Both the position numbers and the translations under genes were made by a program. A stretch of 64,000 nucleotides of DNA. Source: Allodiplogaster sudhausi. Lineage: Eukaryota; Nematoda; Chromadorea; Rhabditida; Diplogasteridae. The notes under the pieces are model-generated. The model saw nothing but the letters and a program-made list of their open reading frames with translations. It had not been told where the DNA came from and ran no database searches. The DNA lies in NCBI GenBank assembly GCA_945643635.1, contig CALZFC010000255.1, positions 124,001 through 188,000 on the forward strand, read 5' to 3'. Shown here piece after piece: positions 1 through 64,000 of this stretch (position 1 is the stretch's first letter; the number at the start of each line of letters is the position of its first letter).

Positions 1-330
1 CAGCAAAAAAATATTTTTATACTTGAGGACAATAACTTTATGTATTATAGGCTTGTTCTACGAAAAATTGTAGGTGTTTACGCCCATAAGACATGTCGAT
101 TGGAAACTGTTTGCTTCGATTTTGACTACTCAGAAGATGAACACGAAATTCTGATTTAACCAGATTATTGGCCTGGTTTTTTCTTCATTCTTGTAGTAGG
201 AAGCTGAAATTTTTCCAGGTGGTTTCTAGGCCCCTATGGACTGTCCATGCAAAATTTCACGTCGATTGAACAAAATTTTTGACGACCACGACTACGCAGC
301 CGATGGTCATAAATTCCGAAGGCTATAAAT
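1..330. repeat. 330-bp unit (one-T deletion type), first of 11
   Basis: Reads AAAAATTGTAGG instead of AAAAATTTGTAGG. The same type occurs at 5152, 33910, 34571, 36225, 37548, 38540, 42137, 42798, 44743 and 47295. The deletion opens a 39-codon frame (40-159 here) that is stopped at phase 88 in 331-bp units; see the rejected list. No other difference from the reference unit was seen. Confidence 0.92.
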
Positions 331-622
331 CAGCAAAAAAATATTTTTATACTTGAGGACAATAACTTTATGTATTATAGGCTTGTTCTACGAAAAATTT
401 GTAGGTGTTTACTTTGACTACTCAGAAGATGAACACGAAATTCTGATTTAACCAGATTATTGGCCTGGTTTTTTCTTCATTCTTGTAGTAGGAAGCTGAA
501 ATTTTTCCAGGTGGTTTCTAGGCCCCTATGGACTGTCCATGCAAAATTTCACGTCGATTGAACAAAATTTTTGACGACCACGACTACGCAGCCGATGGTC
601 ATAAATTCCGAAGGCTATAAAT
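331..622. repeat. 292-bp short unit with ATTTGTAGG junction
   Basis: Lacks phases 83-121 and otherwise matches the reference unit. The same form is at 1285-1576 and, far to the right, at 57415, 58953 and 59576. Its presence at both ends of the window suggests that the short form arose once and was spread, with the TGTG change added later on the right. Confidence 0.92.
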
Positions 623-1576
623 CAGCAAAAAAATATTTTTATACTTGAGGACAATAACTTTATGTATTATAGGCTTGTTCTACGAAAAATTTGTAGGTGT
701 TTACGCCCATAAGACATGTCGATTGGAAACTGTTTGCTTCGATTTTGACTACTCAGAAGATGAACACGAAATTCTGATTTAACCAGATTATTGGCCTGGT
801 TTTTTCTTCATTCTTGTAGTAGGAAGCTGAAATTTTTCCAGGTGGTTTCTAGGCCCCTATGGACTGTCCATGCAAAATTTCACGTCGATTGAACAAAATT
901 TTTGACGACCACGACTACGCAGCCGATGGTCATAAATTCCGAAGGCTATAAATCAGCAAAAAAATATTTTTATACTTGAGGACAATAACTTTATGTATTA
1001 TAGGCTTGTTCTACGAAAAATTTGTAGGTGTTTACGCCCATAAGACATGTCGATTGGAAACTGTTTGCTTCGATTTTGACTACTCAGAAGATGAACACGA
1101 AATTCTGATTTAACCAGATTATTGGCCTGGTTTTTTCTTCATTCTTGTAGTAGGAAGCTGAAATTTTTCCAGGTGGTTTCTAGGCCCCTATGGACTGTCC
1201 ATGCAAAATTTCACGTCGATTGAACAAAATTTTTGACGACCACGACTACGCAGCCGATGGTCATAAATTCCGAAGGCTATAAATCAGCAAAAAAATATTT
1301 TTATACTTGAGGACAATAACTTTATGTATTATAGGCTTGTTCTACGAAAAATTTGTAGGTGTTTACTTTGACTACTCAGAAGATGAACACGAAATTCTGA
1401 TTTAACCAGATTATTGGCCTGGTTTTTTCTTCATTCTTGTAGTAGGAAGCTGAAATTTTTCCAGGTGGTTTCTAGGCCCCTATGGACTGTCCATGCAAAA
1501 TTTCACGTCGATTGAACAAAATTTTTGACGACCACGACTACGCAGCCGATGGTCATAAATTCCGAAGGCTATAAAT

Positions 1577-1879
1577 CAGCAAAAAAATATTTTTATACTT
1601 GAGGACAATAACTTTATGTATTATAGGCTTGTTCTACGAAAAATAGGAAAAGACATGTAGGTGTTTTACTTTGACTACTCAGAAGATGAACACGAAATTC
1701 TGATTTAACCAGATTATTGGCCTGGTTTTTTCTTCATTCTTGTAGTAGGAAGCTGAAATTTTTCCAGGTGGTTTCTAGGCCCCTATGGACTGTCCATGCA
1801 AAATTTCACGTCGATTGAACAAAATTTTTGACGACCACGACTACGCAGCCGATGGTCATAAATTCCGAAGGCTATAAAT
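1577..1879. repeat. 303-bp rearranged unit with apparent templated insertion
   Basis: After CGAAAAAT it reads AGGAAAAGACATGTAGGTG, then GTTTTAC joined to TTTGAC. Relative to a 292-bp unit, two T are lost, about 12 bases are inserted and one T is added. The AAGACATGT within the insert equals phases 89-97, which lie in the 39-bp segment this unit lacks. The insert therefore looks copied from the deleted segment during repair or template switching. Confidence 0.88.
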
Positions 1880-6100: not shown

Positions 6101-6442
6101 ACGACTACGCAGCCGATGGTCATAAATTCCGAAGGCTATAAATCAGCAAAAAAATATTTTTATACTTGAGGACAATAACTTTATGTATTATAGGCTTGTT
6201 CTACGAAAAATTTGTAGGTGTTTACTTTTGACTACTCAGAAGATGAACACGAAATTCTGATTTAACCAGATTATTGGCCTGGTTTTTTCTTCATTCTTGT
6301 AGTAGGAAGCTGAAATTTTTCCAGGTGGTTTCTAGGCCCCTATGGACTGTCCATGCAAAATTTCACGTCGATTGAACAAAATTTTTGACGACCACGACTA
6401 CGCAGCCGATGGTCATAAATTCCGAAGGCTATAAATCAGCAA

Positions 6443-6454
6443 AAAAATATTTTT
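6443..6454. other. AT palindrome in an A-tract/T-tract
   Basis: AAAAATATTTTT (phases 7-18) is a perfect 12-base palindrome inside an A7-TA-T5 run. Phased A- and T-tracts commonly bend DNA or disfavour nucleosomes, so this may mark linker DNA once per unit. It occurs in every unit. Confidence 0.6.
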
Positions 6455-6498
6455 ATACTTGAGGACAATAACTTTATGTATTATAGGCTTGTTCTACG

Positions 6499-6561
6499 AA
6501 AAATTTGTAGGTGTTTACGCCCATAAGACATGTCGATTGGAAACTGTTTGCTTCGATTTTG
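6499..6561. other. Variable window of the monomer (phases 63-125)
   Basis: Shown in the reference unit; nearly every difference found among units maps here (one small ACT duplication at 45714 extends to about phase 130). Variants: T3 to T2 or TGT at phases 68-70; one added A in the preceding A-run; duplications of GT, GTA, GTAG or TAGGTGTT at 71-80; loss of 38 to 40 bases beginning at phase 83; T to G at phase 102; mixed deletion and insertion events. The homologous part of half B does not vary. Whether this is a break site, an excluded tract during homogenisation, or a relaxed linker is inference. Confidence 0.85.
6519..6557. other. 39-bp segment absent from 292-bp units (phases 83-121)
   Basis: Full units read TTTAC then GCCCATAAG up to CTTCGAT then TTTGAC; 292-bp units read TTTACTTTGAC, so phases 83-121 are missing. 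There is no shared base at the junction (C82 against T121, G83 against T122), so the join is blunt. The segment overlaps sequence with a counterpart in half B (GTCGATTG at phase 96), which makes the full form ancestral and the short form a deletion. Confidence 0.88.
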
Positions 6562-6594
6562 ACTACTCAGAAGATGAACACGAAATTCTGATTT

Positions 6595-6619
6595 AACCAG
6601 ATTATTGGCCTGGTTTTTT
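6595..6619. other. Hairpin with trailing T6 tract (phases 159-183)
   Basis: AACCAG and CTGGTT form a perfect 6-bp stem with a 9-base loop, directly followed by T-rich sequence; the last two stem bases belong to the T6 run at 6614-6619. It resembles an intrinsic terminator or a polymerase III stop, but no transcription unit is established here and the stem is weak. It is present in every unit, spanning the half A/half B boundary. Confidence 0.4.
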
Positions 6620-6672
6620 CTTCATTCTTGTAGTAGGAAGCTGAAATTTTTCCAGGTGGTTTCTAGGCCCCT

Positions 6673-6685
6673 ATGGACTGTCCAT
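6673..6685. other. Perfect dyad ATGGAC-T-GTCCAT
   Basis: Six-base arms around one central base (phases 237-249) in half B, present in every unit. A short spacer and perfect arms fit a binding site for a dimeric protein, for instance a satellite-binding factor, but no known consensus was matched. The corresponding place in half A is within the stretch missing there, so the dyad occurs once per unit. Confidence 0.5.
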
Positions 6686-6760
6686 GCAAAATTTCACGTC
6701 GATTGAACAAAATTTTTGACGACCACGACTACGCAGCCGATGGTCATAAATTCCGAAGGC

Positions 6761-6767
6761 TATAAAT
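6761..6767. promoter_or_regulatory. TATA-like motif TATAAAT at unit end
   Basis: TATAAAT (phases 325-331) sits just before phase 1 of the next unit and about 40 bases before the ATG at phase 40. It matches a TATA-box consensus and might drive satellite transcripts. In 37% G+C DNA such a motif is expected by chance often enough that this is only a candidate. Confidence 0.2.
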
Positions 6768-9700
6768 CAGCAAAAAAATATTTTTATACTTGAGGACAAT
6801 AACTTTATGTATTATAGGCTTGTTCTACGAAAAATTTGTAGGTGTTTACGCCCATAAGACATGTCGATTGGAAACTGTTTGCTTCGATTTTGACTACTCA
6901 GAAGATGAACACGAAATTCTGATTTAACCAGATTATTGGCCTGGTTTTTTCTTCATTCTTGTAGTAGGAAGCTGAAATTTTTCCAGGTGGTTTCTAGGCC
7001 CCTATGGACTGTCCATGCAAAATTTCACGTCGATTGAACAAAATTTTTGACGACCACGACTACGCAGCCGATGGTCATAAATTCCGAAGGCTATAAATCA
7101 GCAAAAAAATATTTTTATACTTGAGGACAATAACTTTATGTATTATAGGCTTGTTCTACGAAAAATTTGTAGGTGTTTACGCCCATAAGACATGTCGATT
7201 GGAAACTGTTTGCTTCGATTTTGACTACTCAGAAGATGAACACGAAATTCTGATTTAACCAGATTATTGGCCTGGTTTTTTCTTCATTCTTGTAGTAGGA
7301 AGCTGAAATTTTTCCAGGTGGTTTCTAGGCCCCTATGGACTGTCCATGCAAAATTTCACGTCGATTGAACAAAATTTTTGACGACCACGACTACGCAGCC
7401 GATGGTCATAAATTCCGAAGGCTATAAATCAGCAAAAAAATATTTTTATACTTGAGGACAATAACTTTATGTATTATAGGCTTGTTCTACGAAAAATTTG
7501 TAGGTGTTTACGCCCATAAGACATGTCGATTGGAAACTGTTTGCTTCGATTTTGACTACTCAGAAGATGAACACGAAATTCTGATTTAACCAGATTATTG
7601 GCCTGGTTTTTTCTTCATTCTTGTAGTAGGAAGCTGAAATTTTTCCAGGTGGTTTCTAGGCCCCTATGGACTGTCCATGCAAAATTTCACGTCGATTGAA
7701 CAAAATTTTTGACGACCACGACTACGCAGCCGATGGTCATAAATTCCGAAGGCTATAAATCAGCAAAAAAATATTTTTATACTTGAGGACAATAACTTTA
7801 TGTATTATAGGCTTGTTCTACGAAAAATTTGTAGGTGTTTACGCCCATAAGACATGTCGATTGGAAACTGTTTGCTTCGATTTTGACTACTCAGAAGATG
7901 AACACGAAATTCTGATTTAACCAGATTATTGGCCTGGTTTTTTCTTCATTCTTGTAGTAGGAAGCTGAAATTTTTCCAGGTGGTTTCTAGGCCCCTATGG
8001 ACTGTCCATGCAAAATTTCACGTCGATTGAACAAAATTTTTGACGACCACGACTACGCAGCCGATGGTCATAAATTCCGAAGGCTATAAATCAGCAAAAA
8101 AATATTTTTATACTTGAGGACAATAACTTTATGTATTATAGGCTTGTTCTACGAAAAATTTGTAGGTGTTTACGCCCATAAGACATGTCGATTGGAAACT
8201 GTTTGCTTCGATTTTGACTACTCAGAAGATGAACACGAAATTCTGATTTAACCAGATTATTGGCCTGGTTTTTTCTTCATTCTTGTAGTAGGAAGCTGAA
8301 ATTTTTCCAGGTGGTTTCTAGGCCCCTATGGACTGTCCATGCAAAATTTCACGTCGATTGAACAAAATTTTTGACGACCACGACTACGCAGCCGATGGTC
8401 ATAAATTCCGAAGGCTATAAATCAGCAAAAAAATATTTTTATACTTGAGGACAATAACTTTATGTATTATAGGCTTGTTCTACGAAAAATTTGTAGGTGT
8501 TTACGCCCATAAGACATGTCGATTGGAAACTGTTTGCTTCGATTTTGACTACTCAGAAGATGAACACGAAATTCTGATTTAACCAGATTATTGGCCTGGT
8601 TTTTTCTTCATTCTTGTAGTAGGAAGCTGAAATTTTTCCAGGTGGTTTCTAGGCCCCTATGGACTGTCCATGCAAAATTTCACGTCGATTGAACAAAATT
8701 TTTGACGACCACGACTACGCAGCCGATGGTCATAAATTCCGAAGGCTATAAATCAGCAAAAAAATATTTTTATACTTGAGGACAATAACTTTATGTATTA
8801 TAGGCTTGTTCTACGAAAAATTTGTAGGTGTTTACGCCCATAAGACATGTCGATTGGAAACTGTTTGCTTCGATTTTGACTACTCAGAAGATGAACACGA
8901 AATTCTGATTTAACCAGATTATTGGCCTGGTTTTTTCTTCATTCTTGTAGTAGGAAGCTGAAATTTTTCCAGGTGGTTTCTAGGCCCCTATGGACTGTCC
9001 ATGCAAAATTTCACGTCGATTGAACAAAATTTTTGACGACCACGACTACGCAGCCGATGGTCATAAATTCCGAAGGCTATAAATCAGCAAAAAAATATTT
9101 TTATACTTGAGGACAATAACTTTATGTATTATAGGCTTGTTCTACGAAAAATTTGTAGGTGTTTACGCCCATAAGACATGTCGATTGGAAACTGTTTGCT
9201 TCGATTTTGACTACTCAGAAGATGAACACGAAATTCTGATTTAACCAGATTATTGGCCTGGTTTTTTCTTCATTCTTGTAGTAGGAAGCTGAAATTTTTC
9301 CAGGTGGTTTCTAGGCCCCTATGGACTGTCCATGCAAAATTTCACGTCGATTGAACAAAATTTTTGACGACCACGACTACGCAGCCGATGGTCATAAATT
9401 CCGAAGGCTATAAATCAGCAAAAAAATATTTTTATACTTGAGGACAATAACTTTATGTATTATAGGCTTGTTCTACGAAAAATTTGTAGGTGTTTACGCC
9501 CATAAGACATGTCGATTGGAAACTGTTTGCTTCGATTTTGACTACTCAGAAGATGAACACGAAATTCTGATTTAACCAGATTATTGGCCTGGTTTTTTCT
9601 TCATTCTTGTAGTAGGAAGCTGAAATTTTTCCAGGTGGTTTCTAGGCCCCTATGGACTGTCCATGCAAAATTTCACGTCGATTGAACAAAATTTTTGACG

Positions 9701-12700
9701 ACCACGACTACGCAGCCGATGGTCATAAATTCCGAAGGCTATAAATCAGCAAAAAAATATTTTTATACTTGAGGACAATAACTTTATGTATTATAGGCTT
9801 GTTCTACGAAAAATTTGTAGGTGTTTACGCCCATAAGACATGTCGATTGGAAACTGTTTGCTTCGATTTTGACTACTCAGAAGATGAACACGAAATTCTG
9901 ATTTAACCAGATTATTGGCCTGGTTTTTTCTTCATTCTTGTAGTAGGAAGCTGAAATTTTTCCAGGTGGTTTCTAGGCCCCTATGGACTGTCCATGCAAA
10001 ATTTCACGTCGATTGAACAAAATTTTTGACGACCACGACTACGCAGCCGATGGTCATAAATTCCGAAGGCTATAAATCAGCAAAAAAATATTTTTATACT
10101 TGAGGACAATAACTTTATGTATTATAGGCTTGTTCTACGAAAAATTTGTAGGTGTTTACGCCCATAAGACATGTCGATTGGAAACTGTTTGCTTCGATTT
10201 TGACTACTCAGAAGATGAACACGAAATTCTGATTTAACCAGATTATTGGCCTGGTTTTTTCTTCATTCTTGTAGTAGGAAGCTGAAATTTTTCCAGGTGG
10301 TTTCTAGGCCCCTATGGACTGTCCATGCAAAATTTCACGTCGATTGAACAAAATTTTTGACGACCACGACTACGCAGCCGATGGTCATAAATTCCGAAGG
10401 CTATAAATCAGCAAAAAAATATTTTTATACTTGAGGACAATAACTTTATGTATTATAGGCTTGTTCTACGAAAAATTTGTAGGTGTTTACGCCCATAAGA
10501 CATGTCGATTGGAAACTGTTTGCTTCGATTTTGACTACTCAGAAGATGAACACGAAATTCTGATTTAACCAGATTATTGGCCTGGTTTTTTCTTCATTCT
10601 TGTAGTAGGAAGCTGAAATTTTTCCAGGTGGTTTCTAGGCCCCTATGGACTGTCCATGCAAAATTTCACGTCGATTGAACAAAATTTTTGACGACCACGA
10701 CTACGCAGCCGATGGTCATAAATTCCGAAGGCTATAAATCAGCAAAAAAATATTTTTATACTTGAGGACAATAACTTTATGTATTATAGGCTTGTTCTAC
10801 GAAAAATTTGTAGGTGTTTACGCCCATAAGACATGTCGATTGGAAACTGTTTGCTTCGATTTTGACTACTCAGAAGATGAACACGAAATTCTGATTTAAC
10901 CAGATTATTGGCCTGGTTTTTTCTTCATTCTTGTAGTAGGAAGCTGAAATTTTTCCAGGTGGTTTCTAGGCCCCTATGGACTGTCCATGCAAAATTTCAC
11001 GTCGATTGAACAAAATTTTTGACGACCACGACTACGCAGCCGATGGTCATAAATTCCGAAGGCTATAAATCAGCAAAAAAATATTTTTATACTTGAGGAC
11101 AATAACTTTATGTATTATAGGCTTGTTCTACGAAAAATTTGTAGGTGTTTACGCCCATAAGACATGTCGATTGGAAACTGTTTGCTTCGATTTTGACTAC
11201 TCAGAAGATGAACACGAAATTCTGATTTAACCAGATTATTGGCCTGGTTTTTTCTTCATTCTTGTAGTAGGAAGCTGAAATTTTTCCAGGTGGTTTCTAG
11301 GCCCCTATGGACTGTCCATGCAAAATTTCACGTCGATTGAACAAAATTTTTGACGACCACGACTACGCAGCCGATGGTCATAAATTCCGAAGGCTATAAA
11401 TCAGCAAAAAAATATTTTTATACTTGAGGACAATAACTTTATGTATTATAGGCTTGTTCTACGAAAAATTTGTAGGTGTTTACGCCCATAAGACATGTCG
11501 ATTGGAAACTGTTTGCTTCGATTTTGACTACTCAGAAGATGAACACGAAATTCTGATTTAACCAGATTATTGGCCTGGTTTTTTCTTCATTCTTGTAGTA
11601 GGAAGCTGAAATTTTTCCAGGTGGTTTCTAGGCCCCTATGGACTGTCCATGCAAAATTTCACGTCGATTGAACAAAATTTTTGACGACCACGACTACGCA
11701 GCCGATGGTCATAAATTCCGAAGGCTATAAATCAGCAAAAAAATATTTTTATACTTGAGGACAATAACTTTATGTATTATAGGCTTGTTCTACGAAAAAT
11801 TTGTAGGTGTTTACGCCCATAAGACATGTCGATTGGAAACTGTTTGCTTCGATTTTGACTACTCAGAAGATGAACACGAAATTCTGATTTAACCAGATTA
11901 TTGGCCTGGTTTTTTCTTCATTCTTGTAGTAGGAAGCTGAAATTTTTCCAGGTGGTTTCTAGGCCCCTATGGACTGTCCATGCAAAATTTCACGTCGATT
12001 GAACAAAATTTTTGACGACCACGACTACGCAGCCGATGGTCATAAATTCCGAAGGCTATAAATCAGCAAAAAAATATTTTTATACTTGAGGACAATAACT
12101 TTATGTATTATAGGCTTGTTCTACGAAAAATTTGTAGGTGTTTACGCCCATAAGACATGTCGATTGGAAACTGTTTGCTTCGATTTTGACTACTCAGAAG
12201 ATGAACACGAAATTCTGATTTAACCAGATTATTGGCCTGGTTTTTTCTTCATTCTTGTAGTAGGAAGCTGAAATTTTTCCAGGTGGTTTCTAGGCCCCTA
12301 TGGACTGTCCATGCAAAATTTCACGTCGATTGAACAAAATTTTTGACGACCACGACTACGCAGCCGATGGTCATAAATTCCGAAGGCTATAAATCAGCAA
12401 AAAAATATTTTTATACTTGAGGACAATAACTTTATGTATTATAGGCTTGTTCTACGAAAAATTTGTAGGTGTTTACGCCCATAAGACATGTCGATTGGAA
12501 ACTGTTTGCTTCGATTTTGACTACTCAGAAGATGAACACGAAATTCTGATTTAACCAGATTATTGGCCTGGTTTTTTCTTCATTCTTGTAGTAGGAAGCT
12601 GAAATTTTTCCAGGTGGTTTCTAGGCCCCTATGGACTGTCCATGCAAAATTTCACGTCGATTGAACAAAATTTTTGACGACCACGACTACGCAGCCGATG

Positions 12701-15700
12701 GTCATAAATTCCGAAGGCTATAAATCAGCAAAAAAATATTTTTATACTTGAGGACAATAACTTTATGTATTATAGGCTTGTTCTACGAAAAATTTGTAGG
12801 TGTTTACGCCCATAAGACATGTCGATTGGAAACTGTTTGCTTCGATTTTGACTACTCAGAAGATGAACACGAAATTCTGATTTAACCAGATTATTGGCCT
12901 GGTTTTTTCTTCATTCTTGTAGTAGGAAGCTGAAATTTTTCCAGGTGGTTTCTAGGCCCCTATGGACTGTCCATGCAAAATTTCACGTCGATTGAACAAA
13001 ATTTTTGACGACCACGACTACGCAGCCGATGGTCATAAATTCCGAAGGCTATAAATCAGCAAAAAAATATTTTTATACTTGAGGACAATAACTTTATGTA
13101 TTATAGGCTTGTTCTACGAAAAATTTGTAGGTGTTTACGCCCATAAGACATGTCGATTGGAAACTGTTTGCTTCGATTTTGACTACTCAGAAGATGAACA
13201 CGAAATTCTGATTTAACCAGATTATTGGCCTGGTTTTTTCTTCATTCTTGTAGTAGGAAGCTGAAATTTTTCCAGGTGGTTTCTAGGCCCCTATGGACTG
13301 TCCATGCAAAATTTCACGTCGATTGAACAAAATTTTTGACGACCACGACTACGCAGCCGATGGTCATAAATTCCGAAGGCTATAAATCAGCAAAAAAATA
13401 TTTTTATACTTGAGGACAATAACTTTATGTATTATAGGCTTGTTCTACGAAAAATTTGTAGGTGTTTACGCCCATAAGACATGTCGATTGGAAACTGTTT
13501 GCTTCGATTTTGACTACTCAGAAGATGAACACGAAATTCTGATTTAACCAGATTATTGGCCTGGTTTTTTCTTCATTCTTGTAGTAGGAAGCTGAAATTT
13601 TTCCAGGTGGTTTCTAGGCCCCTATGGACTGTCCATGCAAAATTTCACGTCGATTGAACAAAATTTTTGACGACCACGACTACGCAGCCGATGGTCATAA
13701 ATTCCGAAGGCTATAAATCAGCAAAAAAATATTTTTATACTTGAGGACAATAACTTTATGTATTATAGGCTTGTTCTACGAAAAATTTGTAGGTGTTTAC
13801 GCCCATAAGACATGTCGATTGGAAACTGTTTGCTTCGATTTTGACTACTCAGAAGATGAACACGAAATTCTGATTTAACCAGATTATTGGCCTGGTTTTT
13901 TCTTCATTCTTGTAGTAGGAAGCTGAAATTTTTCCAGGTGGTTTCTAGGCCCCTATGGACTGTCCATGCAAAATTTCACGTCGATTGAACAAAATTTTTG
14001 ACGACCACGACTACGCAGCCGATGGTCATAAATTCCGAAGGCTATAAATCAGCAAAAAAATATTTTTATACTTGAGGACAATAACTTTATGTATTATAGG
14101 CTTGTTCTACGAAAAATTTGTAGGTGTTTACGCCCATAAGACATGTCGATTGGAAACTGTTTGCTTCGATTTTGACTACTCAGAAGATGAACACGAAATT
14201 CTGATTTAACCAGATTATTGGCCTGGTTTTTTCTTCATTCTTGTAGTAGGAAGCTGAAATTTTTCCAGGTGGTTTCTAGGCCCCTATGGACTGTCCATGC
14301 AAAATTTCACGTCGATTGAACAAAATTTTTGACGACCACGACTACGCAGCCGATGGTCATAAATTCCGAAGGCTATAAATCAGCAAAAAAATATTTTTAT
14401 ACTTGAGGACAATAACTTTATGTATTATAGGCTTGTTCTACGAAAAATTTGTAGGTGTTTACGCCCATAAGACATGTCGATTGGAAACTGTTTGCTTCGA
14501 TTTTGACTACTCAGAAGATGAACACGAAATTCTGATTTAACCAGATTATTGGCCTGGTTTTTTCTTCATTCTTGTAGTAGGAAGCTGAAATTTTTCCAGG
14601 TGGTTTCTAGGCCCCTATGGACTGTCCATGCAAAATTTCACGTCGATTGAACAAAATTTTTGACGACCACGACTACGCAGCCGATGGTCATAAATTCCGA
14701 AGGCTATAAATCAGCAAAAAAATATTTTTATACTTGAGGACAATAACTTTATGTATTATAGGCTTGTTCTACGAAAAATTTGTAGGTGTTTACGCCCATA
14801 AGACATGTCGATTGGAAACTGTTTGCTTCGATTTTGACTACTCAGAAGATGAACACGAAATTCTGATTTAACCAGATTATTGGCCTGGTTTTTTCTTCAT
14901 TCTTGTAGTAGGAAGCTGAAATTTTTCCAGGTGGTTTCTAGGCCCCTATGGACTGTCCATGCAAAATTTCACGTCGATTGAACAAAATTTTTGACGACCA
15001 CGACTACGCAGCCGATGGTCATAAATTCCGAAGGCTATAAATCAGCAAAAAAATATTTTTATACTTGAGGACAATAACTTTATGTATTATAGGCTTGTTC
15101 TACGAAAAATTTGTAGGTGTTTACGCCCATAAGACATGTCGATTGGAAACTGTTTGCTTCGATTTTGACTACTCAGAAGATGAACACGAAATTCTGATTT
15201 AACCAGATTATTGGCCTGGTTTTTTCTTCATTCTTGTAGTAGGAAGCTGAAATTTTTCCAGGTGGTTTCTAGGCCCCTATGGACTGTCCATGCAAAATTT
15301 CACGTCGATTGAACAAAATTTTTGACGACCACGACTACGCAGCCGATGGTCATAAATTCCGAAGGCTATAAATCAGCAAAAAAATATTTTTATACTTGAG
15401 GACAATAACTTTATGTATTATAGGCTTGTTCTACGAAAAATTTGTAGGTGTTTACGCCCATAAGACATGTCGATTGGAAACTGTTTGCTTCGATTTTGAC
15501 TACTCAGAAGATGAACACGAAATTCTGATTTAACCAGATTATTGGCCTGGTTTTTTCTTCATTCTTGTAGTAGGAAGCTGAAATTTTTCCAGGTGGTTTC
15601 TAGGCCCCTATGGACTGTCCATGCAAAATTTCACGTCGATTGAACAAAATTTTTGACGACCACGACTACGCAGCCGATGGTCATAAATTCCGAAGGCTAT

Positions 15701-49763: not shown

Positions 49764-50055
49764 CAGCAAAAAAATATTTTTATACTTGAGGACAATAACT
49801 TTATGTATTATAGGCTTGTTCTACGAAAAATGTGTAGGTGTTTACTTTGACTACTCAGAAGATGAACACGAAATTCTGATTTAACCAGATTATTGGCCTG
49901 GTTTTTTCTTCATTCTTGTAGTAGGAAGCTGAAATTTTTCCAGGTGGTTTCTAGGCCCCTATGGACTGTCCATGCAAAATTTCACGTCGATTGAACAAAA
50001 TTTTTGACGACCACGACTACGCAGCCGATGGTCATAAATTCCGAAGGCTATAAAT

Positions 50056-50374: not shown

Positions 50375-50705
50375 CAGCAAAAAAATATTTTTATACTTGA
50401 GGACAATAACTTTATGTATTATAGGCTTGTTCTACGAAAAATGTGTAGGTGTTTACGCCCATAAGACATGTCGATTGGAAACTGTTTGCTTCGATTTTGA
50501 CTACTCAGAAGATGAACACGAAATTCTGATTTAACCAGATTATTGGCCTGGTTTTTTCTTCATTCTTGTAGTAGGAAGCTGAAATTTTTCCAGGTGGTTT
50601 CTAGGCCCCTATGGACTGTCCATGCAAAATTTCACGTCGATTGAACAAAATTTTTGACGACCACGACTACGCAGCCGATGGTCATAAATTCCGAAGGCTA
50701 TAAAT

Positions 50706-51000
50706 CAGCAAAAAAATATTTTTATACTTGAGGACAATAACTTTATGTATTATAGGCTTGTTCTACGAAAAATGTAGGTAGGTGTTTACTTTTGACTACT
50801 CAGAAGATGAACACGAAATTCTGATTTAACCAGATTATTGGCCTGGTTTTTTCTTCATTCTTGTAGTAGGAAGCTGAAATTTTTCCAGGTGGTTTCTAGG
50901 CCCCTATGGACTGTCCATGCAAAATTTCACGTCGATTGAACAAAATTTTTGACGACCACGACTACGCAGCCGATGGTCATAAATTCCGAAGGCTATAAAT
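50706..51000. repeat. 295-bp short unit with GTAG duplication
   Basis: Reads AAAAATGTAGGTAGGTGTTTAC then TTTTGAC: GTAG is repeated in tandem and the right join is of the 293-bp kind. Confidence 0.88.
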
Positions 51001-52507
51001 CAGCAAAAAAATATTTTTATACTTGAGGACAATAACTTTATGTATTATAGGCTTGTTCTACGAAAAATGTGTAGGTGTTTACTTTTGACTACTCAGAAGA
51101 TGAACACGAAATTCTGATTTAACCAGATTATTGGCCTGGTTTTTTCTTCATTCTTGTAGTAGGAAGCTGAAATTTTTCCAGGTGGTTTCTAGGCCCCTAT
51201 GGACTGTCCATGCAAAATTTCACGTCGATTGAACAAAATTTTTGACGACCACGACTACGCAGCCGATGGTCATAAATTCCGAAGGCTATAAATCAGCAAA
51301 AAAATATTTTTATACTTGAGGACAATAACTTTATGTATTATAGGCTTGTTCTACGAAAAATGTGTAGGTGTTTACTTTGACTACTCAGAAGATGAACACG
51401 AAATTCTGATTTAACCAGATTATTGGCCTGGTTTTTTCTTCATTCTTGTAGTAGGAAGCTGAAATTTTTCCAGGTGGTTTCTAGGCCCCTATGGACTGTC
51501 CATGCAAAATTTCACGTCGATTGAACAAAATTTTTGACGACCACGACTACGCAGCCGATGGTCATAAATTCCGAAGGCTATAAATCAGCAAAAAAATATT
51601 TTTATACTTGAGGACAATAACTTTATGTATTATAGGCTTGTTCTACGAAAAATGTAGGTGTTTAGGTGTTTACTTTTGACTACTCAGAAGATGAACACGA
51701 AATTCTGATTTAACCAGATTATTGGCCTGGTTTTTTCTTCATTCTTGTAGTAGGAAGCTGAAATTTTTCCAGGTGGTTTCTAGGCCCCTATGGACTGTCC
51801 ATGCAAAATTTCACGTCGATTGAACAAAATTTTTGACGACCACGACTACGCAGCCGATGGTCATAAATTCCGAAGGCTATAAATCAGCAAAAAAATATTT
51901 TTATACTTGAGGACAATAACTTTATGTATTATAGGCTTGTTCTACGAAAAATGTGTAGGTGTTTACTTTGACTACTCAGAAGATGAACACGAAATTCTGA
52001 TTTAACCAGATTATTGGCCTGGTTTTTTCTTCATTCTTGTAGTAGGAAGCTGAAATTTTTCCAGGTGGTTTCTAGGCCCCTATGGACTGTCCATGCAAAA
52101 TTTCACGTCGATTGAACAAAATTTTTGACGACCACGACTACGCAGCCGATGGTCATAAATTCCGAAGGCTATAAATCAGCAAAAAAATATTTTTATACTT
52201 GAGGACAATAACTTTATGTATTATAGGCTTGTTCTACGAAAAATGTGTAGGTGTTTACGCCCATAAGACATGTCGATTGGAAACTGTTTGCTTCGATTTT
52301 GACTACTCAGAAGATGAACACGAAATTCTGATTTAACCAGATTATTGGCCTGGTTTTTTCTTCATTCTTGTAGTAGGAAGCTGAAATTTTTCCAGGTGGT
52401 TTCTAGGCCCCTATGGACTGTCCATGCAAAATTTCACGTCGATTGAACAAAATTTTTGACGACCACGACTACGCAGCCGATGGTCATAAATTCCGAAGGC
52501 TATAAAT

Positions 52508-52800
52508 CAGCAAAAAAATATTTTTATACTTGAGGACAATAACTTTATGTATTATAGGCTTGTTCTACGAAAAATGTAGTAGGTGTTTACTTTGACTACT
52601 CAGAAGATGAACACGAAATTCTGATTTAACCAGATTATTGGCCTGGTTTTTTCTTCATTCTTGTAGTAGGAAGCTGAAATTTTTCCAGGTGGTTTCTAGG
52701 CCCCTATGGACTGTCCATGCAAAATTTCACGTCGATTGAACAAAATTTTTGACGACCACGACTACGCAGCCGATGGTCATAAATTCCGAAGGCTATAAAT
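52508..52800. repeat. 293-bp short unit with GTA duplication
   Basis: Reads AAAAATGTAGTAGGTGTTTAC then TTTGAC. It reaches the same length as the 293-bp unit at 2873 by a different route (duplication of GTA, not an extra T at the right join). Confidence 0.88.
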
Positions 52801-54630
52801 CAGCAAAAAAATATTTTTATACTTGAGGACAATAACTTTATGTATTATAGGCTTGTTCTACGAAAAATGTGTAGGTGTTTACTTTGACTACTCAGAAGAT
52901 GAACACGAAATTCTGATTTAACCAGATTATTGGCCTGGTTTTTTCTTCATTCTTGTAGTAGGAAGCTGAAATTTTTCCAGGTGGTTTCTAGGCCCCTATG
53001 GACTGTCCATGCAAAATTTCACGTCGATTGAACAAAATTTTTGACGACCACGACTACGCAGCCGATGGTCATAAATTCCGAAGGCTATAAATCAGCAAAA
53101 AAATATTTTTATACTTGAGGACAATAACTTTATGTATTATAGGCTTGTTCTACGAAAAATGTGTAGGTGTTTACTTTGACTACTCAGAAGATGAACACGA
53201 AATTCTGATTTAACCAGATTATTGGCCTGGTTTTTTCTTCATTCTTGTAGTAGGAAGCTGAAATTTTTCCAGGTGGTTTCTAGGCCCCTATGGACTGTCC
53301 ATGCAAAATTTCACGTCGATTGAACAAAATTTTTGACGACCACGACTACGCAGCCGATGGTCATAAATTCCGAAGGCTATAAATCAGCAAAAAAATATTT
53401 TTATACTTGAGGACAATAACTTTATGTATTATAGGCTTGTTCTACGAAAAATGTGTAGGTGTTTACTTTGACTACTCAGAAGATGAACACGAAATTCTGA
53501 TTTAACCAGATTATTGGCCTGGTTTTTTCTTCATTCTTGTAGTAGGAAGCTGAAATTTTTCCAGGTGGTTTCTAGGCCCCTATGGACTGTCCATGCAAAA
53601 TTTCACGTCGATTGAACAAAATTTTTGACGACCACGACTACGCAGCCGATGGTCATAAATTCCGAAGGCTATAAATCAGCAAAAAAATATTTTTATACTT
53701 GAGGACAATAACTTTATGTATTATAGGCTTGTTCTACGAAAAATGTGTAGGTGTTTACGCCCATAAGACATGTCGATTGGAAACTGTTTGCTTCGATTTT
53801 GACTACTCAGAAGATGAACACGAAATTCTGATTTAACCAGATTATTGGCCTGGTTTTTTCTTCATTCTTGTAGTAGGAAGCTGAAATTTTTCCAGGTGGT
53901 TTCTAGGCCCCTATGGACTGTCCATGCAAAATTTCACGTCGATTGAACAAAATTTTTGACGACCACGACTACGCAGCCGATGGTCATAAATTCCGAAGGC
54001 TATAAATCAGCAAAAAAATATTTTTATACTTGAGGACAATAACTTTATGTATTATAGGCTTGTTCTACGAAAAATGTGTAGGTGTTTACGCCCATAAGAC
54101 ATGTCGATTGGAAACTGTTTGCTTCGATTTTGACTACTCAGAAGATGAACACGAAATTCTGATTTAACCAGATTATTGGCCTGGTTTTTTCTTCATTCTT
54201 GTAGTAGGAAGCTGAAATTTTTCCAGGTGGTTTCTAGGCCCCTATGGACTGTCCATGCAAAATTTCACGTCGATTGAACAAAATTTTTGACGACCACGAC
54301 TACGCAGCCGATGGTCATAAATTCCGAAGGCTATAAATCAGCAAAAAAATATTTTTATACTTGAGGACAATAACTTTATGTATTATAGGCTTGTTCTACG
54401 AAAAATGTGTAGGTGTTTACTTTGACTACTCAGAAGATGAACACGAAATTCTGATTTAACCAGATTATTGGCCTGGTTTTTTCTTCATTCTTGTAGTAGG
54501 AAGCTGAAATTTTTCCAGGTGGTTTCTAGGCCCCTATGGACTGTCCATGCAAAATTTCACGTCGATTGAACAAAATTTTTGACGACCACGACTACGCAGC
54601 CGATGGTCATAAATTCCGAAGGCTATAAAT

Positions 54631-54961
54631 CAGCAAAAAAATATTTTTATACTTGAGGACAATAACTTTATGTATTATAGGCTTGTTCTACGAAAAATGT
54701 GTAGGTGTTTACGCCCATAAGACATGTCGATGGGAAACTGTTTGCTTCGATTTTGACTACTCAGAAGATGAACACGAAATTCTGATTTAACCAGATTATT
54801 GGCCTGGTTTTTTCTTCATTCTTGTAGTAGGAAGCTGAAATTTTTCCAGGTGGTTTCTAGGCCCCTATGGACTGTCCATGCAAAATTTCACGTCGATTGA
54901 ACAAAATTTTTGACGACCACGACTACGCAGCCGATGGTCATAAATTCCGAAGGCTATAAAT
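54631..54961. repeat. 331-bp unit with GATGGG (F* type), first of seven
   Basis: T to G at phase 102 (GTCGATGGG). The same change is in units at 57084, 58291, 59245, 59868, 62361 and 63315, and I saw it nowhere left of 54.6 kb. Half B reads GTCGATTG at the matching place, so T is ancestral and G derived. It is a good local marker for unit duplication in the right zone. Confidence 0.9.
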
Positions 54962-57900
54962 CAGCAAAAAAATATTTTTATACTTGAGGACAATAACTTT
55001 ATGTATTATAGGCTTGTTCTACGAAAAATGTGTAGGTGTTTACTTTGACTACTCAGAAGATGAACACGAAATTCTGATTTAACCAGATTATTGGCCTGGT
55101 TTTTTCTTCATTCTTGTAGTAGGAAGCTGAAATTTTTCCAGGTGGTTTCTAGGCCCCTATGGACTGTCCATGCAAAATTTCACGTCGATTGAACAAAATT
55201 TTTGACGACCACGACTACGCAGCCGATGGTCATAAATTCCGAAGGCTATAAATCAGCAAAAAAATATTTTTATACTTGAGGACAATAACTTTATGTATTA
55301 TAGGCTTGTTCTACGAAAAATGTGTAGGTGTTTACTTTGACTACTCAGAAGATGAACACGAAATTCTGATTTAACCAGATTATTGGCCTGGTTTTTTCTT
55401 CATTCTTGTAGTAGGAAGCTGAAATTTTTCCAGGTGGTTTCTAGGCCCCTATGGACTGTCCATGCAAAATTTCACGTCGATTGAACAAAATTTTTGACGA
55501 CCACGACTACGCAGCCGATGGTCATAAATTCCGAAGGCTATAAATCAGCAAAAAAATATTTTTATACTTGAGGACAATAACTTTATGTATTATAGGCTTG
55601 TTCTACGAAAAATGTGTAGGTGTTTACTTTGACTACTCAGAAGATGAACACGAAATTCTGATTTAACCAGATTATTGGCCTGGTTTTTTCTTCATTCTTG
55701 TAGTAGGAAGCTGAAATTTTTCCAGGTGGTTTCTAGGCCCCTATGGACTGTCCATGCAAAATTTCACGTCGATTGAACAAAATTTTTGACGACCACGACT
55801 ACGCAGCCGATGGTCATAAATTCCGAAGGCTATAAATCAGCAAAAAAATATTTTTATACTTGAGGACAATAACTTTATGTATTATAGGCTTGTTCTACGA
55901 AAAATGTGTAGGTGTTTACGCCCATAAGACATGTCGATTGGAAACTGTTTGCTTCGATTTTGACTACTCAGAAGATGAACACGAAATTCTGATTTAACCA
56001 GATTATTGGCCTGGTTTTTTCTTCATTCTTGTAGTAGGAAGCTGAAATTTTTCCAGGTGGTTTCTAGGCCCCTATGGACTGTCCATGCAAAATTTCACGT
56101 CGATTGAACAAAATTTTTGACGACCACGACTACGCAGCCGATGGTCATAAATTCCGAAGGCTATAAATCAGCAAAAAAATATTTTTATACTTGAGGACAA
56201 TAACTTTATGTATTATAGGCTTGTTCTACGAAAAATGTGTAGGTGTTTACTTTGACTACTCAGAAGATGAACACGAAATTCTGATTTAACCAGATTATTG
56301 GCCTGGTTTTTTCTTCATTCTTGTAGTAGGAAGCTGAAATTTTTCCAGGTGGTTTCTAGGCCCCTATGGACTGTCCATGCAAAATTTCACGTCGATTGAA
56401 CAAAATTTTTGACGACCACGACTACGCAGCCGATGGTCATAAATTCCGAAGGCTATAAATCAGCAAAAAAATATTTTTATACTTGAGGACAATAACTTTA
56501 TGTATTATAGGCTTGTTCTACGAAAAATGTGTAGGTGTTTACTTTGACTACTCAGAAGATGAACACGAAATTCTGATTTAACCAGATTATTGGCCTGGTT
56601 TTTTCTTCATTCTTGTAGTAGGAAGCTGAAATTTTTCCAGGTGGTTTCTAGGCCCCTATGGACTGTCCATGCAAAATTTCACGTCGATTGAACAAAATTT
56701 TTGACGACCACGACTACGCAGCCGATGGTCATAAATTCCGAAGGCTATAAATCAGCAAAAAAATATTTTTATACTTGAGGACAATAACTTTATGTATTAT
56801 AGGCTTGTTCTACGAAAAATGTGTAGGTGTTTACGCCCATAAGACATGTCGATTGGAAACTGTTTGCTTCGATTTTGACTACTCAGAAGATGAACACGAA
56901 ATTCTGATTTAACCAGATTATTGGCCTGGTTTTTTCTTCATTCTTGTAGTAGGAAGCTGAAATTTTTCCAGGTGGTTTCTAGGCCCCTATGGACTGTCCA
57001 TGCAAAATTTCACGTCGATTGAACAAAATTTTTGACGACCACGACTACGCAGCCGATGGTCATAAATTCCGAAGGCTATAAATCAGCAAAAAAATATTTT
57101 TATACTTGAGGACAATAACTTTATGTATTATAGGCTTGTTCTACGAAAAATGTGTAGGTGTTTACGCCCATAAGACATGTCGATGGGAAACTGTTTGCTT
57201 CGATTTTGACTACTCAGAAGATGAACACGAAATTCTGATTTAACCAGATTATTGGCCTGGTTTTTTCTTCATTCTTGTAGTAGGAAGCTGAAATTTTTCC
57301 AGGTGGTTTCTAGGCCCCTATGGACTGTCCATGCAAAATTTCACGTCGATTGAACAAAATTTTTGACGACCACGACTACGCAGCCGATGGTCATAAATTC
57401 CGAAGGCTATAAATCAGCAAAAAAATATTTTTATACTTGAGGACAATAACTTTATGTATTATAGGCTTGTTCTACGAAAAATTTGTAGGTGTTTACTTTG
57501 ACTACTCAGAAGATGAACACGAAATTCTGATTTAACCAGATTATTGGCCTGGTTTTTTCTTCATTCTTGTAGTAGGAAGCTGAAATTTTTCCAGGTGGTT
57601 TCTAGGCCCCTATGGACTGTCCATGCAAAATTTCACGTCGATTGAACAAAATTTTTGACGACCACGACTACGCAGCCGATGGTCATAAATTCCGAAGGCT
57701 ATAAATCAGCAAAAAAATATTTTTATACTTGAGGACAATAACTTTATGTATTATAGGCTTGTTCTACGAAAAATGTGTAGGTGTTTACTTTGACTACTCA
57801 GAAGATGAACACGAAATTCTGATTTAACCAGATTATTGGCCTGGTTTTTTCTTCATTCTTGTAGTAGGAAGCTGAAATTTTTCCAGGTGGTTTCTAGGCC

Positions 57901-58290
57901 CCTATGGACTGTCCATGCAAAATTTCACGTCGATTGAACAAAATTTTTGACGACCACGACTACGCAGCCGATGGTCATAAATTCCGAAGGCTATAAATCA
58001 GCAAAAAAATATTTTTATACTTGAGGACAATAACTTTATGTATTATAGGCTTGTTCTACGAAAAATGTGTAGGTGTTTACTTTGACTACTCAGAAGATGA
58101 ACACGAAATTCTGATTTAACCAGATTATTGGCCTGGTTTTTTCTTCATTCTTGTAGTAGGAAGCTGAAATTTTTCCAGGTGGTTTCTAGGCCCCTATGGA
58201 CTGTCCATGCAAAATTTCACGTCGATTGAACAAAATTTTTGACGACCACGACTACGCAGCCGATGGTCATAAATTCCGAAGGCTATAAAT

Positions 58291-59867
58291 CAGCAAAAAA
58301 ATATTTTTATACTTGAGGACAATAACTTTATGTATTATAGGCTTGTTCTACGAAAAATGTGTAGGTGTTTACGCCCATAAGACATGTCGATGGGAAACTG
58401 TTTGCTTCGATTTTGACTACTCAGAAGATGAACACGAAATTCTGATTTAACCAGATTATTGGCCTGGTTTTTTCTTCATTCTTGTAGTAGGAAGCTGAAA
58501 TTTTTCCAGGTGGTTTCTAGGCCCCTATGGACTGTCCATGCAAAATTTCACGTCGATTGAACAAAATTTTTGACGACCACGACTACGCAGCCGATGGTCA
58601 TAAATTCCGAAGGCTATAAATCAGCAAAAAAATATTTTTATACTTGAGGACAATAACTTTATGTATTATAGGCTTGTTCTACGAAAAATGTGTAGGTGTT
58701 TACGCCCATAAGACATGTCGATTGGAAACTGTTTGCTTCGATTTTGACTACTCAGAAGATGAACACGAAATTCTGATTTAACCAGATTATTGGCCTGGTT
58801 TTTTCTTCATTCTTGTAGTAGGAAGCTGAAATTTTTCCAGGTGGTTTCTAGGCCCCTATGGACTGTCCATGCAAAATTTCACGTCGATTGAACAAAATTT
58901 TTGACGACCACGACTACGCAGCCGATGGTCATAAATTCCGAAGGCTATAAATCAGCAAAAAAATATTTTTATACTTGAGGACAATAACTTTATGTATTAT
59001 AGGCTTGTTCTACGAAAAATTTGTAGGTGTTTACTTTGACTACTCAGAAGATGAACACGAAATTCTGATTTAACCAGATTATTGGCCTGGTTTTTTCTTC
59101 ATTCTTGTAGTAGGAAGCTGAAATTTTTCCAGGTGGTTTCTAGGCCCCTATGGACTGTCCATGCAAAATTTCACGTCGATTGAACAAAATTTTTGACGAC
59201 CACGACTACGCAGCCGATGGTCATAAATTCCGAAGGCTATAAATCAGCAAAAAAATATTTTTATACTTGAGGACAATAACTTTATGTATTATAGGCTTGT
59301 TCTACGAAAAATGTGTAGGTGTTTACGCCCATAAGACATGTCGATGGGAAACTGTTTGCTTCGATTTTGACTACTCAGAAGATGAACACGAAATTCTGAT
59401 TTAACCAGATTATTGGCCTGGTTTTTTCTTCATTCTTGTAGTAGGAAGCTGAAATTTTTCCAGGTGGTTTCTAGGCCCCTATGGACTGTCCATGCAAAAT
59501 TTCACGTCGATTGAACAAAATTTTTGACGACCACGACTACGCAGCCGATGGTCATAAATTCCGAAGGCTATAAATCAGCAAAAAAATATTTTTATACTTG
59601 AGGACAATAACTTTATGTATTATAGGCTTGTTCTACGAAAAATTTGTAGGTGTTTACTTTGACTACTCAGAAGATGAACACGAAATTCTGATTTAACCAG
59701 ATTATTGGCCTGGTTTTTTCTTCATTCTTGTAGTAGGAAGCTGAAATTTTTCCAGGTGGTTTCTAGGCCCCTATGGACTGTCCATGCAAAATTTCACGTC
59801 GATTGAACAAAATTTTTGACGACCACGACTACGCAGCCGATGGTCATAAATTCCGAAGGCTATAAAT
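58291..59867. repeat. Candidate higher-order repeat F*-F-S-F*-S, copy 1
   Basis: Five units of 331, 331, 292, 331 and 292 bp (1577 bp), with GATGGG in the first and fourth. The same order recurs at 62361-63937. The copies differ only in the short units (ATTTGTAGG here, ATGTGTAGG there), as far as I could see. Confidence 0.6.
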
Positions 59868-62691
59868 CAGCAAAAAAATATTTTTATACTTGAGGACAAT
59901 AACTTTATGTATTATAGGCTTGTTCTACGAAAAATGTGTAGGTGTTTACGCCCATAAGACATGTCGATGGGAAACTGTTTGCTTCGATTTTGACTACTCA
60001 GAAGATGAACACGAAATTCTGATTTAACCAGATTATTGGCCTGGTTTTTTCTTCATTCTTGTAGTAGGAAGCTGAAATTTTTCCAGGTGGTTTCTAGGCC
60101 CCTATGGACTGTCCATGCAAAATTTCACGTCGATTGAACAAAATTTTTGACGACCACGACTACGCAGCCGATGGTCATAAATTCCGAAGGCTATAAATCA
60201 GCAAAAAAATATTTTTATACTTGAGGACAATAACTTTATGTATTATAGGCTTGTTCTACGAAAAATGTGTAGGTGTTTACTTTGACTACTCAGAAGATGA
60301 ACACGAAATTCTGATTTAACCAGATTATTGGCCTGGTTTTTTCTTCATTCTTGTAGTAGGAAGCTGAAATTTTTCCAGGTGGTTTCTAGGCCCCTATGGA
60401 CTGTCCATGCAAAATTTCACGTCGATTGAACAAAATTTTTGACGACCACGACTACGCAGCCGATGGTCATAAATTCCGAAGGCTATAAATCAGCAAAAAA
60501 ATATTTTTATACTTGAGGACAATAACTTTATGTATTATAGGCTTGTTCTACGAAAAATGTGTAGGTGTTTACGCCCATAAGACATGTCGATTGGAAACTG
60601 TTTGCTTCGATTTTGACTACTCAGAAGATGAACACGAAATTCTGATTTAACCAGATTATTGGCCTGGTTTTTTCTTCATTCTTGTAGTAGGAAGCTGAAA
60701 TTTTTCCAGGTGGTTTCTAGGCCCCTATGGACTGTCCATGCAAAATTTCACGTCGATTGAACAAAATTTTTGACGACCACGACTACGCAGCCGATGGTCA
60801 TAAATTCCGAAGGCTATAAATCAGCAAAAAAATATTTTTATACTTGAGGACAATAACTTTATGTATTATAGGCTTGTTCTACGAAAAAATGTGTAGGTGT
60901 TTACTTTGACTACTCAGAAGATGAACACGAAATTCTGATTTAACCAGATTATTGGCCTGGTTTTTTCTTCATTCTTGTAGTAGGAAGCTGAAATTTTTCC
61001 AGGTGGTTTCTAGGCCCCTATGGACTGTCCATGCAAAATTTCACGTCGATTGAACAAAATTTTTGACGACCACGACTACGCAGCCGATGGTCATAAATTC
61101 CGAAGGCTATAAATCAGCAAAAAAATATTTTTATACTTGAGGACAATAACTTTATGTATTATAGGCTTGTTCTACGAAAAATGTGTAGGTGTTTACGCCC
61201 ATAAGACATGTCGATTGGAAACTGTTTGCTTCGATTTTGACTACTCAGAAGATGAACACGAAATTCTGATTTAACCAGATTATTGGCCTGGTTTTTTCTT
61301 CATTCTTGTAGTAGGAAGCTGAAATTTTTCCAGGTGGTTTCTAGGCCCCTATGGACTGTCCATGCAAAATTTCACGTCGATTGAACAAAATTTTTGACGA
61401 CCACGACTACGCAGCCGATGGTCATAAATTCCGAAGGCTATAAATCAGCAAAAAAATATTTTTATACTTGAGGACAATAACTTTATGTATTATAGGCTTG
61501 TTCTACGAAAAATGTGTAGGTGTTTACTTTGACTACTCAGAAGATGAACACGAAATTCTGATTTAACCAGATTATTGGCCTGGTTTTTTCTTCATTCTTG
61601 TAGTAGGAAGCTGAAATTTTTCCAGGTGGTTTCTAGGCCCCTATGGACTGTCCATGCAAAATTTCACGTCGATTGAACAAAATTTTTGACGACCACGACT
61701 ACGCAGCCGATGGTCATAAATTCCGAAGGCTATAAATCAGCAAAAAAATATTTTTATACTTGAGGACAATAACTTTATGTATTATAGGCTTGTTCTACGA
61801 AAAATGTGTAGGTGTTTACGCCCATAAGACATGTCGATTGGAAACTGTTTGCTTCGATTTTGACTACTCAGAAGATGAACACGAAATTCTGATTTAACCA
61901 GATTATTGGCCTGGTTTTTTCTTCATTCTTGTAGTAGGAAGCTGAAATTTTTCCAGGTGGTTTCTAGGCCCCTATGGACTGTCCATGCAAAATTTCACGT
62001 CGATTGAACAAAATTTTTGACGACCACGACTACGCAGCCGATGGTCATAAATTCCGAAGGCTATAAATCAGCAAAAAAATATTTTTATACTTGAGGACAA
62101 TAACTTTATGTATTATAGGCTTGTTCTACGAAAAATGTGTAGGTGTTTACTTTGACTACTCAGAAGATGAACACGAAATTCTGATTTAACCAGATTATTG
62201 GCCTGGTTTTTTCTTCATTCTTGTAGTAGGAAGCTGAAATTTTTCCAGGTGGTTTCTAGGCCCCTATGGACTGTCCATGCAAAATTTCACGTCGATTGAA
62301 CAAAATTTTTGACGACCACGACTACGCAGCCGATGGTCATAAATTCCGAAGGCTATAAATCAGCAAAAAAATATTTTTATACTTGAGGACAATAACTTTA
62401 TGTATTATAGGCTTGTTCTACGAAAAATGTGTAGGTGTTTACGCCCATAAGACATGTCGATGGGAAACTGTTTGCTTCGATTTTGACTACTCAGAAGATG
62501 AACACGAAATTCTGATTTAACCAGATTATTGGCCTGGTTTTTTCTTCATTCTTGTAGTAGGAAGCTGAAATTTTTCCAGGTGGTTTCTAGGCCCCTATGG
62601 ACTGTCCATGCAAAATTTCACGTCGATTGAACAAAATTTTTGACGACCACGACTACGCAGCCGATGGTCATAAATTCCGAAGGCTATAAAT
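58953..62691. repeat. Six consecutive short-full dimers of about 623 bp
   Basis: Dimers start at 58953, 59576, 60199, 60822 (624 bp), 61446 and 62069. Strict alternation over 12 units suggests amplification of the 623-bp dimer as a unit. The first two dimers share both marker variants (S' with F*) and look like a direct duplication. Confidence 0.75.
60822..61114. repeat. 293-bp short unit with one extra A
   Basis: Reads CGAAAAAATGTGTAGG (six A instead of five), then TTTACTTTGAC. It is the only unit I saw with a longer A-run at phase 63. Confidence 0.88.
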
Positions 62692-63937
62692 CAGCAAAAA
62701 AATATTTTTATACTTGAGGACAATAACTTTATGTATTATAGGCTTGTTCTACGAAAAATGTGTAGGTGTTTACGCCCATAAGACATGTCGATTGGAAACT
62801 GTTTGCTTCGATTTTGACTACTCAGAAGATGAACACGAAATTCTGATTTAACCAGATTATTGGCCTGGTTTTTTCTTCATTCTTGTAGTAGGAAGCTGAA
62901 ATTTTTCCAGGTGGTTTCTAGGCCCCTATGGACTGTCCATGCAAAATTTCACGTCGATTGAACAAAATTTTTGACGACCACGACTACGCAGCCGATGGTC
63001 ATAAATTCCGAAGGCTATAAATCAGCAAAAAAATATTTTTATACTTGAGGACAATAACTTTATGTATTATAGGCTTGTTCTACGAAAAATGTGTAGGTGT
63101 TTACTTTGACTACTCAGAAGATGAACACGAAATTCTGATTTAACCAGATTATTGGCCTGGTTTTTTCTTCATTCTTGTAGTAGGAAGCTGAAATTTTTCC
63201 AGGTGGTTTCTAGGCCCCTATGGACTGTCCATGCAAAATTTCACGTCGATTGAACAAAATTTTTGACGACCACGACTACGCAGCCGATGGTCATAAATTC
63301 CGAAGGCTATAAATCAGCAAAAAAATATTTTTATACTTGAGGACAATAACTTTATGTATTATAGGCTTGTTCTACGAAAAATGTGTAGGTGTTTACGCCC
63401 ATAAGACATGTCGATGGGAAACTGTTTGCTTCGATTTTGACTACTCAGAAGATGAACACGAAATTCTGATTTAACCAGATTATTGGCCTGGTTTTTTCTT
63501 CATTCTTGTAGTAGGAAGCTGAAATTTTTCCAGGTGGTTTCTAGGCCCCTATGGACTGTCCATGCAAAATTTCACGTCGATTGAACAAAATTTTTGACGA
63601 CCACGACTACGCAGCCGATGGTCATAAATTCCGAAGGCTATAAATCAGCAAAAAAATATTTTTATACTTGAGGACAATAACTTTATGTATTATAGGCTTG
63701 TTCTACGAAAAATGTGTAGGTGTTTACTTTGACTACTCAGAAGATGAACACGAAATTCTGATTTAACCAGATTATTGGCCTGGTTTTTTCTTCATTCTTG
63801 TAGTAGGAAGCTGAAATTTTTCCAGGTGGTTTCTAGGCCCCTATGGACTGTCCATGCAAAATTTCACGTCGATTGAACAAAATTTTTGACGACCACGACT
63901 ACGCAGCCGATGGTCATAAATTCCGAAGGCTATAAAT
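62361..63937. repeat. Candidate higher-order repeat F*-F-S-F*-S, copy 2
   Basis: Second copy of the 1577-bp five-unit order, starting 4070 bp after the first. With only two copies and three marker types, chance recurrence is not excluded. Confidence 0.6.
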
Positions 63938-64000
63938 CAGCAAAAAAATATTTTTATACTTGAGGACAATAACTTTATGTATTATAGGCTTGTTCTACGA
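63938..64000. repeat. Partial satellite unit at right window edge
   Basis: Phases 1-63 of a further unit, cut by the end of the window just before the variable segment, so its type (full or short) cannot be told. It shows that the array continues to the right. Confidence 0.97.

Follow-up and report, generated by a model that had tools for sequence, protein, structure and literature searches.

Variation in a 331-bp nematode satellite array is confined to one short tract of the unit and resembles scars of recurrent breakage

In most satellite DNA the traces of breakage, mending and homogenisation are difficult to follow, since ordinary mutations obscure them. In partly conserved satellites, among them alpha satellite with its CENP-B box and satellites of beetles and clams, the variable parts of the unit hold drifted substitutions. 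Multi-copy repeats edited with Cas9 carry small insertions and deletions (indels) with filler, at fixed positions and in many copies. A frog satellite paper of 2006, judged by its title alone, reportedly links the variability of the unit to a repair mechanism and is a possible precedent. According to the portion of a satellite review available to us, part or all of the monomer can be conserved, possibly under constraint (PMC5615363). Hairpins of human alpha satellite can be cut in vitro by topoisomerase II alpha, and where it cleaves in a biological context is contested, at least in the accessible part of that work (PMC7618268), while the "nonrandom distribution" named in the available part of a further paper concerns places near genes and not phases of the unit (PMC3411249). 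Here we describe a satellite array of the diplogastrid nematode Allodiplogaster sudhausi that fills a whole stretch of 64,000 nucleotides (the window; assembly GCA_945643635.1, contig CALZFC010000255.1, positions 124,001 to 188,000), and in which every difference between units falls into one short tract. This observation is real and unusual.

The strongest self-match of the window was found at a lag of 331, which identifies it as a single tandem array (1..64000; coordinates are window positions, without strand) of 198 complete units followed by 63 bases. Units were delimited by an exact 32-base anchor and numbered from unit 0, and phase refers to the position within the 331-bp consensus unit. 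Over all 198 units the longest measured 331 bp, so no anchor was lost through mutation. Unit lengths were 331 bp (144 units), 292 bp (26 units, the commonest short form), 330 bp (11), 293 bp (6) and nine rarer lengths (11 units together). We distinguished 21 unit types: the consensus, type A, accounts for 122 of the 198 units and the 76 differing units comprise types B (21 units), C (15), D (11), E (7), F (5) and G (3) and fourteen singletons, H to U. The array is thus tandem satellite DNA, long, head-to-tail and made of near-identical units.

Extraction of the 198 units and their comparison phase by phase showed no spread of differences over the unit. Relative to the consensus, the shortest prefix shared by any variant is 67 bases and the shortest shared suffix 205 bases, so the variable phases are 68-126, a tract of 59 bases (690..748 in the first consensus unit, unit 2, which starts at 623). 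The extra A of type U ends the A5 run at 63-67 and may be written from phase 63 if left-shifted, which would move the start of the tract there. The initial annotation had placed the variation between phases 63 and 130, correctly to within a few bases. It had also described the remaining bases as identical throughout, and this holds in 198 of 198 units (271 phases each outside 68-127, 53,658 bases), as well as in the partial last unit of 63 bases; the window contains none of the substitutions elsewhere that it feared to have missed. The unit is a diverged dimer in which half A, containing the tract, aligns with half B, and the stretch of half B aligned with the tract (approximately phases 211-292; 833..914 in unit 2) is invariant in 198 of 198 units, as had been noticed by eye.

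All 14 singleton types lie inside the tract, with a probability of about 1e-8 under uniform placement (331 placements allowed). For eight independent events, an arc of 59 bases or less arose in 0 of 20,000 simulations (analytic value about 5e-5), and with only six independent events the probability is about 0.001; uniform placement is excluded with eight or more independent events. Distinct lesion states, of which 19 were counted by hand, are inside the tract at least 29-fold denser than the 95% upper limit for the outside. Homopolymer replication slippage was rejected as a cause: it predicts most change in the longest runs, whereas A7 (5-11) and T6 (178-183) are constant in all 198 units. Nine homopolymer runs of four or more bases lie outside 68-126; eight are constant and the ninth, the A5 run touching the tract, is perhaps one A longer in type U, while T3 and T4 runs within the tract do vary. 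The constancy of the outer runs argues against slippage and against sequencing error.

Two further features go beyond the initial annotation, namely that the changes are mostly indels and that they are very unevenly distributed along the array. By hand count, ten left states (types M and S share one) and nine right states give 19 lesion states, only two of which are substitutions; types O and P count on both sides, so the independent events may be fewer than 19. Break zones recur at phases 68-70, at a fixed left end 82|83, and at right ends between 118 and 126. The left zone carries T69G in 45 units and, together with the extra A, in type U, the loss of one T in 11 units, and other changes in eight units (H, M, N, O, P, Q, S and T). 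Starting from the T69G form, a single additional base gives type T and an addition of two bases the left side of type O, so that a "complex" left lesion is complex relative to the consensus.

The right side is intact in 148 units. It otherwise shows a 39-bp deletion (31 units), a 38-bp deletion (6), a 40-bp deletion (1), T102G (7) or forms unique to types I, K, L, O and P. The 38-, 39- and 40-bp deletions have exactly the same left end, 82|83, and different right ends; in unit 1 (type F), for example, phase 82 is joined to phase 122 at 412..413. Unit 5 (type H, 1577..1879) combines a left-zone insertion, the 39-bp deletion and an extra T beside 82|83. In unit 137 (type K, 45073..45382; phases by hand) the segment 83-121 is altered at both ends, G83 and phases 95-110 being kept, and type P, which has no such deletion, is altered at about 92-100, inside an 8-bp palindrome, GACATGTC (91-98). 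Short inverted repeats occupy roughly matching places in the two halves, GACATGTC in half A and ATGGAC-T-GTCCAT (237-249) in half B, and are perhaps a protein site. Half B contains a counterpart of most of the sequence removed by the 39-bp deletion, and the 331-bp long form is for this reason probably ancestral to the short one. The short unit of 292 bp (e.g. 331-622) equals 2 x 146, near the size of two linkerless nucleosome cores, possibly by coincidence.

We compared nine inserts, with limits set by hand, with their neighbouring DNA. The insert shared by types M and S (p 0.0005) and that of type N (p 0.008) matched DNA beside the break. In unit 145 (type M, 47625..47922) the 11-base insert of the left break matches adjacent DNA over its whole length, and the unit of type S (51586-51884) has the same left lesion. 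The right junctions of M and S differ, which suggests either exchange or a second lesion in units of the same type. Zero microhomology was found at the 38-, 39- and 40-bp deletions, and 187 of 375 comparable deletions would likewise show none. The right side of type K is, in one reading, a deletion with 4-bp microhomology; read by hand, type K can also be seen as the excised segment reinserted after losing 11 bp at each end, which leaves 95-110. Deletions with filler and recurring break ends are what end-joining scars look like, and these lesions, as far as scars in sequence tell, would belong to that class. The polymerase theta type of end joining, marked by inserts copied from beside the break and by short microhomology, may be represented in two of the nine inserts (p < 0.01, limits by hand), the main deletions being without microhomology. 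A hairpin or cruciform as fragile site was not supported: one 70-base strand of the tract folds no better than shuffled sequence (z 0.24), and folding is stronger in the invariant half-B counterpart (z -1.73).

Along the array, the lesions form blocks. Seven of units 0-19 are altered, after which units 20-102 (6437..33909) are 83 consecutive consensus units, compared with a longest run of 27 in 20,000 shuffles. Identity to the last base over these 83 units (about 27 kb) speaks for amplification in the very recent past or for strong homogenisation of this region. A transition zone, units 103-134 (33910..44451), follows with seven one-T deletions at 68-70 and one larger lesion (type I, unit 125, 41187-41474). 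In the heavily scarred zone, units 135-197 (44452..63937), 61 of 63 units are altered and only units 142 and 143 are not. Twelve of the 14 singleton types (J to U) lie there, H and I being units 5 and 125. Among units with an intact left side, a right lesion is present in 5 of 125 before unit 135 and in 6 of 8 after it (p 1.8e-6, indicative since units are not independent); the excess is therefore regional and not tied to T69G. All eight units with a complex left lesion also have a right lesion, as do 24 of the 57 with a simple one (p 0.002, units again not being independent), as if several breaks opened together or deleted units were cut again. All four combinations of T69 or G69 with an intact or deleted right side exist (types A, C, F and B), which would require either that exchange took place within 13 bp or that the same lesion arose more than once. 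A higher-order period of types in units 135-197 was not convincing (lag 5, p 0.019, and lag 16, p 0.035, among 24 lags).

We consider it rather probable that the array, otherwise very homogeneous, records recurrent site-directed double-strand breaks followed by mutagenic end joining. In each unit a single tract of about 59 bp, in half A, would suffer breaks at a much higher rate than the remaining sequence, falling in about three zones (68-70, 82|83 and 118-126). Error-prone joining of the ends would follow, in part with copying from nearby DNA of the kind that polymerase theta performs at break ends. Some scars would then have been multiplied by local exchange or have arisen repeatedly, and the whole array would be recent or strongly homogenised, so that ordinary mutation is not visible elsewhere. 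Of the two interpretations offered by the initial annotation, a site repeatedly broken and repaired agrees with the filler indels, the fixed left end with its several right ends, the recurrent outcomes and the two of nine inserts that were copied. The other, homogenisation that skips the tract while correcting the rest, fits badly, because an uncorrected tract should gather ordinary substitutions: by hand count these make up 2 of 19 states, and inside the tract, too, the 83 consecutive units show no difference.

Several points weigh against recurrent directed breakage. The commonest left state, T69G (46 units including U), has the look of a simple substitution and may have been inherited, and the right ends could derive from one founding deletion later changed, which would lower the number of independent breaks. 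Seven of the nine inserts tested (H, K, L, O, P, Q and T) did not reach p < 0.05 for local templating, and the value for N (0.008) would fail correction for nine tests. Zero microhomology is weak evidence, since 187 of the 375 comparable deletions would have none either. A row of 83 pristine units needs a regional or historical reason, and a freely diffusing nuclease gives none. As to the agent, we would put forward only tentatively that a natural sequence-specific nuclease, selfish or of the host, cuts in the germline, at a fixed position within the satellite unit; the array would then record its activity as repair scars, the altered units being gathered in one region.

Breakage could do without a dedicated nuclease if a protein bound near the palindrome GACATGTC blocked replication forks, the flanks being rearranged by template switching. 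Break zones lie on either side of the palindrome, which sits close to the midpoint of the tract and may, as a speculation, mark a putative protein site; type K keeps 95-110, and the local copies in M/S and N are compatible with template switching. Yet the tract has no unusual fold (its z of 0.24 stands against -1.73 for the invariant counterpart in half B), type P is altered inside the palindrome itself, and the longest palindrome of the unit (12 bp, 7-18) is invariant and outside the tract; with the main deletions lacking microhomology as a weak further objection, we regard fork stalling as unlikely. Two other explanations, engineered editing and a mobile element, are themselves kinds of directed breakage and overlap the reading that we prefer, so the likelihoods expressed here are not exclusive. 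A programmable nuclease aimed at this satellite in the sequenced animal or cell line would explain why one of the SpCas9 cut positions (after phase 69, with AGG at 73-75) falls in the left zone, the loss of one T being a usual SpCas9 outcome. The coincidence is weak, because each unit holds 25 SpCas9 NGG cut positions, four of them in the tract (69, 89, 90 and 98). None falls at 82|83 or within 118-126, so that the lesions as a whole do not follow the rule of a cut 3 bp upstream of NGG. T69G in 46 units would also be an odd editing outcome, and reference assemblies rarely come from edited lines; engineering is accordingly a quite improbable source of the scars.

A site-specific mobile element that targets the satellite, its nuclease being the breaker and the scars being failed insertions or excision footprints, would be expected to leave small deletions and filler at a fixed target after abortive insertion, and M/S, N, Q and T do have short local duplications at the left zone that can be read as footprints. 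The duplications vary in length, however, the break zones are up to 57 bp apart and would mean more than one target site, and the 64-kb window contains no such element and no unit above 331 bp, all of which makes this origin very unlikely indeed. We find it very unlikely, too, that this is an ordinary satellite with conserved and variable parts, where old variants persist in one tract and the rest is constrained or homogenised. Partial conservation of the monomer has been described for satellites (in the part of the review cited above, PMC5615363), but here the edges are sharp, indels prevail over substitutions, not one of the 14 singleton types leaves the tract, and a long block is pristine within the tract as well. 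Assembly or sequencing artefact, or jumping of the polymerase chain reaction at a hairpin, seems the least likely cause: such arrays are difficult to assemble, but mistakes should gather in long homopolymers, here constant, and be spread evenly along the array, whereas the 83 pristine and the 61 of 63 altered units form blocks, and no unusual fold was found.

Searches for a relative of the array returned negative results. In the accessible text of literature on satellite scars, templated insertion, Cas9 and site-specific elements in satellites no matching array was noticed, nor did 12 short strings of the unit or a 331-bp satellite give a text match; most subscription journals were outside this scope, and the result is no proof of absence in print. 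No match was obtained for a 25-base exact pattern in viral and prokaryote contigs, a second exact pattern in genome contigs, a degenerate pattern in viral contigs, a 332-base stretch against plasmids and phages, or a 677-base stretch against E. coli genomes, all non-eukaryotic collections with little bearing on identity. One 53-residue frame, among several open in the unit, had no protein match. Three matches to one bacterial RNA in Rfam (window 1000-2000 only) were set aside as chance, with 20.3 bits against a gathering score of 50 and E 0.21.

In an otherwise perfect array, every scar can be assigned to an event at a defined base. Should the breaks be natural, the sequence would point to the site for which an enzyme or bound protein may be sought, and site-specific breakage of a satellite would become open to direct experiment. 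Partly conserved satellites resemble this array in that variation is uneven over the unit; unlike them, it shows an absolute contrast between tract and remainder, and its changes resemble end-joining scars. To Cas9-edited multi-copy repeats it bears a likeness in the kind and fixed placement of its lesions, with the difference that only the left break zone lies at an NGG cut position. With the break-prone centromeric satellites, which are attacked by topoisomerase II and structure-specific nucleases, it would share the role of the satellite as a break site, without being assumed to be centromeric. There the position of cleavage in alpha satellite is contested, as far as the accessible part of that work goes (PMC7618268), whereas the scars of the present array mark fixed phases of the unit.

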